From an uncultured Actinomycetes bacterium (GTDB lineage Bacteria; Actinomycetota; Actinomycetes; S36-B12; UBA10799), in contig CAMPEQ010000007.1 in assembly GCA_946803585.1 (NCBI GenBank), positions 218,451 through 282,450 on the forward strand: 64,000 nt of DNA, read 5' to 3'. Shown in pieces: positions 7,513 through 14,779 of the stretch. Under the pieces are notes generated by a model. That model was given only the letters and a program-made list of their open reading frames with translations. It was not told where the DNA came from and made no database searches. The first letter of the stretch is position 1. Each line of letters starts with the position of its first letter. A program made the translations under genes and the position numbers.

Positions 7513-8082
7513 TCAGGAGCACTGCCCGATCATGTCGCGAACCTGTTCGACCCGCAGATCGACACCTCCGGCAACATGTTGCGCGGAAATCGAGCGGTCC
7601 CGCAGCGTCGCGGCAATCACTGCGTCGACTCGATCACGCTCAATCGGGCCGTCACGTTGAGCACCATCTGCCTCCCACGGAATCGCCACATCGCACCAAA
7701 CCAGCGCATCGTAGGTCACCAGATGCTCAACGGCGTGATCGAGCAGGGATGGATCGTTGTAGTAGGCAATGCTGTAGATCGCGGTCATAAATGCCGCCGG
7801 ATCGCCCACTACCAACCGTTTGCGCAGCGATACCGCATCAAGGACTGCGCCCGCCTCCGCAGTCTCCTGATCGAGCATGAGCTGGTACTGCTCGTCCTTG
7901 CGCGGCGGCCGCGCGTGTTCGTCGACGAAGTCGCGTAGCTTCTCGCGAACATGGATGCCGTCAAACTCAGCAACCAGTGCTCGTGCCAGCGTCGTCTTAC
8001 CCGAGCACTCTCCCCCAACCAAACCCACCACGATAGGCCGCGGTTCTGTCCTTGGCTCTGCGTCTGGTTTGCCCACCATCAC
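7513..8082 (-). CDS. NadR-like P-loop nucleoside/vitamin kinase in a TPP-riboswitch operon
   Basis: This 189-residue protein is an AAA/P-loop ATPase resembling the ribosylnicotinamide-kinase half of NadR: Walker A GGECSGKTTLA near residue 23, then REKLRDFVDEHARPPRKDEQY and a Walker B-like ALVWCDVAIPW. It lacks the NadR adenylyltransferase domain. Its GTG start overlaps the stop of the transporter gene (GTGA), so the two are coupled. A standalone NadR-type kinase would normally be called an NR kinase, but the operon begins with a TPP riboswitch. A thiamine-related substrate (thiamine to thiamine phosphate) is therefore a reasonable inference, not proven. ATG at 8079 is an alternative start. 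Confidence 0.8.
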   Translation of the reverse strand: MMVGKPDAEPRTEPRPIVVGLVGGECSGKTTLARALVAEFDGIHVREKLRDFVDEHARPPRKDEQYQLMLDQETAEAGAVLDAVSLRKRLVVGDPAAFMTAIYSIAYYNDPSLLDHAVEHLVTYDALVWCDVAIPWEADGAQRDGPIERDRVDAVIAATLRDRSISAQHVAGGVDLRVEQVRDMIGQCS

Positions 8083-8705
8083 GAAGTGTTCGCACCACTG
8101 GCGACGGCGACGGAAACCTCGCCTGTGGGTGCGGATTCCTTACGAGCCCAGTTCCACCATCCCCAGGCCGCGAGACACAGAAGTACGAAATAGAACACCG
8201 ATGTGAAGTAGAGCTGCTGATTTGCGTAGTGATAGGTCCCAACAACGTTGACGATGACCCAGATCGGCCACGTCTCGACGTAACCCTTGACCATCAGGAA
8301 CTGGGCCGCCACCGACCCGACCAGCACGAATGCATCAAGTAGCGTCGCGGCGGCACCAATCGCGCTGAGCAATGGTGTGACGATCAACCAGACAACGACA
8401 ATTCCGAGTAGGCCCAGCGCTCGCGTCTTGGCAGAAAGCGCTTTGGACTCAACAACTCCGCCTTTACCCCAGTCGAACCAGCCCCAGATGGCGGCGCCCA
8501 TAAACACCAACTGCAAGATCGCGCTGCCAAGCAGATCGAACTCGATGAACAACCAGCCGTAGAGCGCTCCGGATAGGAAGTAGAACGGCCAGGCGATGCG
8601 CTTTCCGAGAGCCGCGAGACTGATCCCAATCAGTGAAACGATGACGGCGAAGAACTCCAAGTACGTGACGTCGTAGTCCCAGGCAGTAAACAGGGTGGAC
8701 ATCAT
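8079..8705 (-). CDS. pnuT: PnuC-family vitamin transporter, likely PnuT (thiamine)
   Basis: The 208-residue protein has about seven hydrophobic helices and the PnuC-type motifs: an N-terminal SLIGISLAALGKRIAWPFYFLSG, the tryptophan-rich IWGWFDW, and the terminal CLAAWGWWNW. PnuC proteins carry vitamins by facilitated diffusion, with trapping by intracellular phosphorylation. Plain homology would give nicotinamide riboside, but the TPP riboswitch directly upstream points to the PnuT branch, which comparative genomics associates with thiamine. The AAGGGAG ribosome-binding site is part of the riboswitch 3' end. Two consecutive ATG codons mark the start. The coupled kinase could do the trapping. 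Confidence 0.82.
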   Translation of the reverse strand: MMSTLFTAWDYDVTYLEFFAVIVSLIGISLAALGKRIAWPFYFLSGALYGWLFIEFDLLGSAILQLVFMGAAIWGWFDWGKGGVVESKALSAKTRALGLLGIVVVWLIVTPLLSAIGAAATLLDAFVLVGSVAAQFLMVKGYVETWPIWVIVNVVGTYHYANQQLYFTSVFYFVLLCLAAWGWWNWARKESAPTGEVSVAVASGANTS

Positions 8706-8710
8706 TGATA

Positions 8711-8797
8711 ACTCCCTTCCTGGGCAGCATTACCTGCCTCAGGTTCAGACGGTCGGCGGCGAGTTCCGCCCTCTCAGCCCGTTGTTTGAGCTCCCGT
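8711..8797 (-). ncRNA. TPP riboswitch (THI element)
   Basis: On the minus strand the conserved TPP aptamer blocks appear in order: GGGCTGAGAG, a GGCGG/CCGCC helix, then CTGAACCTGA, CAGGTAATGCTG and a closing GGAAGGGAG. The last block overlaps the likely ribosome-binding site of the transporter gene, whose ATG is at 8705. Control is therefore most likely at translation initiation: bound TPP would hide the ribosome-binding site. No terminator hairpin with a U-run is seen between aptamer and gene. Confidence 0.95.
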
Positions 8798-8805
8798 GAA
8801 TCGCC

Positions 8806-8811
8806 ACCATA
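8806..8811 (-). promoter_or_regulatory. -10 element of the riboswitch transcript
   Basis: TATGGT on the minus strand lies about eight bases before the aptamer, so transcription would begin almost exactly at the riboswitch 5' end. No clear -35 box is visible. Confidence 0.5.
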
Positions 8812-12520: not shown

Positions 12521-12721
12521 GTCACCTTCCTAACACATCGACAGCACAGGTCCGCACGACACGACCCGATGGCGAACCGCGCTTGGGTCACCGCCACCAC
12601 TCTAACCCGTCGAAGCTTATCGAGTGGACTGCTCCGCTTGGTTGTCTCCAATCGTGCGTCAGCTACCTAAATGTCGATACGCTCGCGACGCTACCGGCTA
12701 ACCCCCTCGGAAGGACAAGAA

Positions 12722-14779
12722 GTGACTCAGTCGCTCGAATGGACAGACCTCGACGCTCGTACCGTCGACACTGCTCGTGTACTGGCCGCAGATGCGGTTC
12801 ACAAGACCGGAAACGGGCACCCAGGAACAGCGATGACGCTGGCGCCTGTGGCGACCTTGCTCTTCCAGCGCATCATGCGCCACGACCCCACCGACCCAAA
12901 GTGGCTCGGGCGCGATCGCTTCGTTCTCTCAGCTGGTCACTCCAGCCTCACGCTCTACATCCAGTTGTTCCTATCTGGCTACGGACTTGAACTGAACGAC
13001 ATCGAGTCGTTCCGTACCGAGAACAGCCTGACACCGGGTCATCCGGAGTATGGCCATACCAAGGGTGTCGAGGTAACCACCGGACCACTTGGCCAGGGAA
13101 TCTCGAACGCTGTTGGTATGGCGATGGACACCCGCTACGTGCGCGGCATGCTCGATTCCGGAGCAGCCCCAGGCAAGAGCCCATTCGACCACCACATCTA
13201 CGTAATTGCTGGCGACGGCTGCCTCGAAGAGGGCATCTCCAGCGAAGCCAGTTCACTGGCTGGTACGCAGAAGCTCGGTAACCTCGTCGTTATCTACGAC
13301 GACAACCACATCTCGATCGAGGGCAACACCGATGTCGCCTTTACCGAGGACGTACTCAAGCGTTACGAGGCCTACGGCTGGCAGACCCTGCATACCGATC
13401 TGCTCCCCAACGGCTCAATCGACCTCGAAGCCGTGAATGCCGCGATCGAGGAAGCGAAGGCAGATATCCACCGCCCGACGATCATTCGCATGCGATCGAT
13501 CATTGGCTGGCCAGCACCGAAGCTGCAGAACACTGGTAAGGCACACGGCGCCGATCTCGGTGCTGAAGAAGTCGCGGCCGTTAAGGAGATCCTCGGGTTC
13601 GACCCCCAGAAGAGCTTTGAGGTTACCGACGAGGTCTTGGCTCACGCCCGCGAAGTCGTCGGCCGAGGTAAGGAGGAGCACGAGAAGTGGCAGTTGAAGT
13701 TCGACGAGTGGCGCGACCACCACGCCGAACATGCCGCTCTACTCGATCGGCTCGTCGCTGACAAGCTTCCAGATGACTTCGAGGCTGCGATTCCGGACTT
13801 CGAGGTAGGCACATCGGTCGCGACTCGAGTCGCCTCCGGAAAGGTCATCAGCGCGATGGCCGGCGTCCTGCCAGAGTTCTGGGGCGGGTCTGCTGACCTG
13901 GCCGGCTCGAACAACACCAGCATCGAAGGCGCAATGTCCTTCGAGCCAGAAGGCAGCCCGGTTCCCAACTCGTCGCCATTCGGTCGCATCATCCACTTTG
14001 GCGTACGCGAGCACGGAATGGGCGCAGTTCTCAATGGCATCGCAGTCGGCGGGTTGACTAAGCCCTACGGAGGAACCTTCTTCACGTTCGCCGACTACAT
14101 GCGCGGCGCCGTCCGCGTTGGTTCGCTGATGAATCTTCCGGTCACGTACGTGTGGACCCACGATTCGGTTGGACTAGGCGAGGACGGCCCGACACATCAG
14201 CCGATCGAGCATCTGACGGCTTACCGCGCGATTCCCAACTTGCAGATCGTCCGCCCCGCTGATGCCAACGAGACGGCAGTAGCGTGGGCCACGATCGTTG
14301 AGAAGCAACTGCCGACTGGGTTGATCCTCAGCCGTCAGAACCTGCCGATCTATGAGAAGGACCAGGCCGTTTCTAAGGGCGCCTACGTTCGGGTGGATGC
14401 CTCGAATGGCGAGCCCAAGGTACTGCTACTGGCCACCGGCTCCGAGGTTCAACTTGCTGTCGGTGCCGCTGAGCAACTCGAATCCGAAGGTATCCCGACG
14501 CGAGTCGTCTCGATGCCGTGCTTCGAGTGGTTCGATGCCCAAGACGAGGCCTACCGGGAGTCCGTCATTCCCAAGTCGGTCAAGGCTCGGGTCTCGGTCG
14601 AAGCCGGACTTGCCACCCCGTGGTATCGCCTCATTGGCGACAACGGAGTCGCAGTCAGCATCGAGCACTACGGCGAGTCAGCAGACGGTGCACTACTGCT
14701 GAAGAAGTTTGGCTTCACAGTGGACAACGTTGTTGCCGCCGCCAAGCAGACGCTACAGAACGTCGAACAGTCCAGCTAG
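12722..14779 (+). CDS. tkt: Transketolase
   Basis: Transketolase moves two-carbon units between sugar phosphates using thiamine pyrophosphate. The 685-residue product has the N-terminal GHPGTAM motif, the TPP-binding GDG near residue 160 followed by DDN, and the C-terminal [11 protein letters not shown]-like region (read here as [15 protein letters not shown]). I chose GTG 12722 because GGAAGGAC precedes it; a longer frame begins at 12671 but has no ribosome-binding site and adds residues not seen in the family. It opens the plus-strand pentose phosphate block. Confidence 0.96.

Follow-up and report, generated by a model that had tools for sequence, protein, structure and literature searches.

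The window, by which we mean the whole 64,000-nucleotide stretch of DNA analysed here, carries three consecutive elements on its reverse strand: a complete TPP riboswitch aptamer (8699 to 8807), the gene pnuT for a PnuC-family transporter of 208 amino acids (8079 to 8705, with an ATG start at 8705 or 8702), and a gene for a NadR-like P-loop kinase of 188 amino acids (7513 to 8079), which we propose to be a thiamine kinase. The aptamer, previously read as full length from the sequence, was recovered by a covariance-model search (cmscan) as a full-length match to RF00059 (model positions 1 to 105 of 105, 51.9 bits, E = 1.4e-9). This score lies 2.4 bits under the curated Rfam gathering cut-off of 54.3 bits for RF00059, and a default-gathering Rfam scan of the window is therefore empty, the aptamer surfacing under an E-value threshold. 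The motifs CTGAGA, GAACCTGA and GGTAAT are all found between 8699 and 8807; the aptamer is the single TPP site in the 2.7 Mb genome and is kept upstream of pnuT in relatives. Its 3' end, partly within P1, forms the Shine-Dalgarno sequence of pnuT (GGAAGGGAG, 8712 to 8720, reverse strand), just where the original prediction had placed the ribosome-binding site of the transporter gene. In an alignment of the window aptamer with eleven relatives the 3' aptamer end, mostly AGGGAGGA, doubles as Shine-Dalgarno sequence of the AGGGAGG type in nearly all 12. This position would fit a switch in which the ribosome site becomes occluded when TPP closes P1.

Assignment of the first gene to the PnuC family was borne out by matches to PF04973 (E = 4.3e-40, 138 bits against a cut-off of 27.3) and, above cut-off, to TIGR01528; the PnuC structure 4QTN matches it with 40 bits, and the window genome encodes no second PnuC homologue. 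An upstream TPP riboswitch, the mark of the thiamine branch PnuT, is found in the window and in 16 of the 18 such operons, and the window PnuT is predicted to transport thiamine. The stop codon of pnuT and the ATG of the kinase gene overlap at 8079 as TGATG, a start that is preferable to the mechanical GTG at 8082. The overlap confirms the arrangement for which coupling of the two genes had been claimed, and their translation is probably coupled as well.

The kinase matches PF13521 (AAA_28) with an E-value of 3.5e-20 and 73 bits against a cut-off of 27, and the bifunctional NadR models (TIGR01526/NF005988) only in part, with 34.4 bits against a cut-off of 341. It is a single-domain protein of 188 residues in which no NMN adenylyltransferase domain was detected, and it thus falls outside the NadR equivalogs. 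These matches agree with its earlier description as a P-loop kinase resembling the nicotinamide riboside (NR) kinase half of NadR, of which it is, judged by its sequence, a standalone relative. Neither the catalytic domain of thiamine pyrophosphokinase (TPK; PF04263) nor, at E-values up to 1 in Pfam, an aminoglycoside-phosphotransferase-like domain of the ThiK type was matched by the protein. The AlphaFold model (pLDDT 94.6) has NadR as its best fold match (Z 21.1, rmsd 2.1 over 172 residues), and five NadR entries lead the structural matches (Z 18.1 to 21.1), with thymidylate kinases lower at about 16; the closest structures solved so far, NadR NR kinases, are compatible with NR and thiamine alike. 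In a tree including E. coli NadR the NadR branch is very long (4.1), which leaves both the root and the precise relationship with NadR uncertain.

Comparison with NadR of E. coli and with the NadR fragments in the PDB separates two classes of conserved residues. The Walker A motif (GGECSGKT, residues 22 to 29, reverse strand 7993 to 8016; G22, E24, G27 and K28 are invariant in 53 relatives), E46, R49, D93, T99, W135, D138 and R176 are common to the kinase family and NadR. Near-invariant in the family, but different in NadR, are L48, R57, P59, E63, Q71, A100, S103, D109, L112 and Q141-R142-D143, and the kinase therefore belongs to a distinct NadR-type family, the substrate of which sequence alone does not tell. 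Several of these positions fall within residues 97 to 112 (reverse strand 7744 to 7791; consensus LMTAxYSxxYFxDxSL), a family-specific segment in which the conserved A100, Y102, S103, D109 and L112 mostly correspond to Q/E, F/Y, C/H, R/S/K and P in the solved and E. coli NadRs. This segment is a candidate for the substrate-side region.

The arrangement of riboswitch, pnuT and kinase is beyond chance. The family of the window organism and two genera of family f5 (g28, g29) together have 18 pnuT genes. Each of these has the NadR-like kinase gene next to it on the downstream side, and 16 of them also have the riboswitch adjacent. In the acI-like family f6 the TPP riboswitch and a pnuT orthologous to that of the window (51% identity over 191 residues) precede, in all 33 cases, another kinase, one of the PRK06547/uridine-kinase type, whose profile aligns with that of the NadR-like kinase over 32 P-loop columns only and whose best solved relative by profile is human NR kinase 1 (NRK1). 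A replacement of this kind at a single operon position is difficult to account for if the second gene does anything other than phosphorylate thiamine. The f6 kinase (loci L085 to L113), named just 'hypothetical protein' by NCBIfam, is a second candidate thiamine kinase. In G027 and G039 (L126:2142-3822 and L127:1859-3613) a TPP riboswitch is followed by a ThiY-like binding protein and then by the PRK06547-like kinase; L127 includes an ABC permease as well. In both genomes this kinase is thus part of an operon for another transporter of thiamine type.

The NadR-like kinase is also retained across relatives while the transporter varies between PnuT, YkoEDC and ThiBPQ. Genera g4 and g7 of family f1 have a YkoEDC-like system downstream of the riboswitch and the kinase elsewhere, and G009 encodes the kinase without pnuT in a neighbourhood otherwise like that of the window (ABC transporter genes, sufR-sufB). 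Most f5 genera have thiBPQ behind the riboswitch, and their ThiB scores above the TIGR01254 cut-off; the kinase gene is remote from thiamine genes, flanked by a pknB-like gene on one side and carotenoid genes on the other. Precisely at this site a riboswitch and pnuT are inserted in G056, which ties the standalone and the operonic kinases together as orthologues. The f5 loci L067, L069, L071 and L081 share this conserved block, in which the NadR-like kinase gene is bordered by a pknB-like Ser/Thr kinase gene and by genes resembling those of lycopene cyclase and phytoene synthase, and no thiamine gene adjoins it.

A scan of named genomes found many relatives of the kinase in Burkholderiales, where TPP riboswitches at gathering score stand beside it in 11 pnuC-kinase loci, some of which also encode a TonB-type receptor (L193 and L197 among them). 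In five Rhodoferax-like loci a TPP riboswitch and thiBPQ come after the kinase. Among the pnuC-kinase pairs of the Roseateles/Pelomonas clade (L178, L190, L195, L198, L211 and L224), the first five were scanned with Rfam and showed no TPP riboswitch within the DNA retrieved around them; the substrate of such pairs may differ, and the kinase family may thus not be uniform in function. Mycobacteriales-like pnuT-kinase loci yielded, at relaxed thresholds, two weak TPP matches only, of about 34.5 bits (L183, L223). Regulation of the same operon by NAD-type elements in other genomes, which had been named as evidence that would speak against a role in thiamine metabolism, was not encountered, although some Burkholderiales pairs have no TPP site in the retrieved DNA.

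If the kinase serves thiamine salvage, genes for thiamine biosynthesis should be missing where it occurs, a check that the original prediction had suggested. Neither ThiC nor TPK was found in any of 166 genomes of the order to which the window organism belongs, while both were detected in control genomes; ThiE was found neither in the window genome nor in most other genomes of the order. ThiL is present in all 80 good genomes. With ThiC, TPK and ThiE missing and ThiL kept, TPP therefore has to be derived from thiamine monophosphate (TMP), which in turn must come from thiamine taken up by the cell. One enzyme that depends on TPP, transketolase, is encoded within the window (12671 to 14779, recognised from its translation). 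The presence of nadA in the window genome indicates de novo synthesis of NAD, and together with the single PnuC-family gene this means that a dedicated NR route is not evidently needed.

Counting strong matches only, the source of TMP in the 80 good genomes would be the NadR-like kinase alone in 39, the PRK06547-like kinase alone in 30, ThiE alone in 3 and both kinases in 3, with 5 genomes having none; for all 166 genomes the corresponding numbers are 75, 57, 8, 4 and 21, and one further genome combines ThiE with the NadR-like kinase. The genomes without a TMP source (21 of 166, 5 of the 80 good ones) are probably explained in part by assembly gaps. Eight of the nine ThiE genomes have neither of the two kinases, and in those checked the riboswitch precedes a CytX-like precursor permease (L132 to L134). 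The NadR-like and the PRK06547-like kinase almost exclude each other (Fisher 2e-11), a value that is no valid probability since both kinases follow family lines; their complementarity runs along clades and reflects few independent events, to which no probability can be attached.

Taken together, we consider it highly probable (roughly 85%) that the locus, which comes from an actinobacterium of freshwater type, is a riboswitch-controlled thiamine uptake-and-trap operon with a NadR-family thiamine kinase that makes TMP for ThiL. The context tests run here all point to thiamine rather than NAD, and it is this genomic context that strongly supports the kinase as a thiamine kinase. The original prediction, which had put forward thiamine instead of NR as a candidate substrate, is thus supported and can be refined in that the likely product is TMP, to be used by ThiL. 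According to the proposed mechanism, the aptamer would be open when TPP is scarce, its 3' end would act as Shine-Dalgarno sequence, and pnuT would be translated, together with the kinase gene by way of the TGATG overlap. Thiamine would enter through PnuT by facilitated diffusion and would be converted by the NadR-like kinase and ATP to TMP, which would be unable to leave the cell, and ThiL would turn TMP into TPP. TPP would then close the aptamer over the Shine-Dalgarno sequence.

An alternative that has to be considered is NAD salvage, with PnuC importing NR, the kinase producing NMN and the TPP riboswitch being incidental. Both protein families carry names that refer to NR, the nearest folds of the kinase are those of NadR, and even the substitute kinase of the acI-like operons is nearest to human NRK1 by profile. 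However, regulation is of the TPP type and not of the NAD type in 16 of 18 triplets and in the acI-like operons, the genome has the de novo NAD gene nadA, and the kinase persists in genomes that have no PnuC and in which ThiBPQ or YkoEDC stands under the riboswitch, as it does beside thiBPQ in Rhodoferax; moreover, the NAD-type pair found in G129 consists of PnuC and a two-domain NadR-like protein. We therefore regard NAD salvage as improbable. Slightly less probable still is that PnuT imports thiamine and the kinase is a general nucleoside kinase or an unrelated kinase riding in the operon: its location away from thiamine genes in many f5 genera would be in line with this, but a different kinase substitutes for it at the same operon slot, its distribution is complementary to that of the other kinase and of ThiE, and the same association with thiamine recurs in Burkholderiales, members of a second phylum. 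Least likely is a thiamine pyrophosphokinase forming TPP in one step, for although TPK is missing in 166 of 166 genomes and TPK or ThiK must thus have a replacement, the retention of ThiL throughout the good genomes of the order points to a TMP intermediate, and by its fold the kinase comes closest to NadR and thymidylate kinases.

The thiamine uptake-and-trap operon proposed here combines features of several known systems, among which PnuT, TPP riboswitches and trapping by a kinase are well established. With the PnuC-NadR salvage of NR (L. lactis, H. influenzae NadR) it shares a facilitator paired with an intracellular trapping kinase, the kinase fold and several catalytic-type residues; in contrast, the window kinase lacks the NMN adenylyltransferase domain, follows a TPP riboswitch, occurs in genomes with nadA, and its family has other conserved residues at 48, 57 to 71, 100 to 112 and 141 to 143. 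The proposed conversion of thiamine to TMP, from which ThiL makes TPP, resembles the ThiBPQ-ThiK-ThiL route of E. coli, but ThiK is of the aminoglycoside-phosphotransferase type, whereas the window kinase is a P-loop protein (AAA_28). Tnr3, which is found in an operon of Bacteroidetes, is a thiamine pyrophosphokinase. The kinase type differs between the family of the window organism (NadR-like) and the acI-like operons (PRK06547/NRK1-like), which have the riboswitch in common; the acI lineage belongs to the same order as the window organism. The OMthi-pnuT-tnr3 operon, whose PnuT has been shown to carry thiamine, likewise unites a TPP riboswitch, PnuT and a phosphorylating enzyme, the latter being Tnr3 where the window organism has a NadR-like kinase and ThiL (PMC5613172). 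For acI, pnuT under a THI element has been described and PnuT proposed as the transporter, in thiamine auxotrophs reported to lack almost every enzyme known for de novo synthesis or salvage; the passages of that paper on thiamine name no kinase (PMC5301498). A NadR-like or non-orthologous thiamine kinase was not found described in the literature searched, older subscription papers being outside its reach, and it is this role of a NadR-like kinase that would be new here, as a strong prediction of function.

More broadly, we think it likely, if with less confidence than for the operon itself, that two P-loop kinase families, with the two kinds of NR kinase (the NadR kinase domain and NRK1) as their closest characterised relatives, were each recruited as thiamine kinases, interchange at the riboswitch-pnuT slot and, together with ThiE, explain where TMP comes from in the majority of genomes in a thiamine-auxotroph order that includes the abundant freshwater acI, the NadR-like type also serving Burkholderiales. 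If so, the enzyme step missing from an entire thiamine-dependent order would be accounted for, proteins of NadR type that carry an NAD salvage annotation in Actinomycetota and Burkholderiales may in fact act on vitamin B1, and predictions of vitamin dependence for lake communities would change. With a named kinase candidate and an unrelated second one at the same place, the salvage gap of acI becomes directly testable.

Two further observations concern individual records. In G129 (L084:1423-3161) the P-loop of the two-domain NadR-like protein encoded after the PnuC gene reads GAESTGTT, with Lys replaced by Thr, and its NR-kinase half is possibly inactive. The records of the metagenome-assembled loci L149, L152, L154, L156, L162, L167, L209 and L223 are titled Bifidobacterium breve, Mycobacterium or Bordetella parapertussis; the loci match Nanopelagicales-like or environmental Burkholderiales-like DNA, and the record names look wrong.
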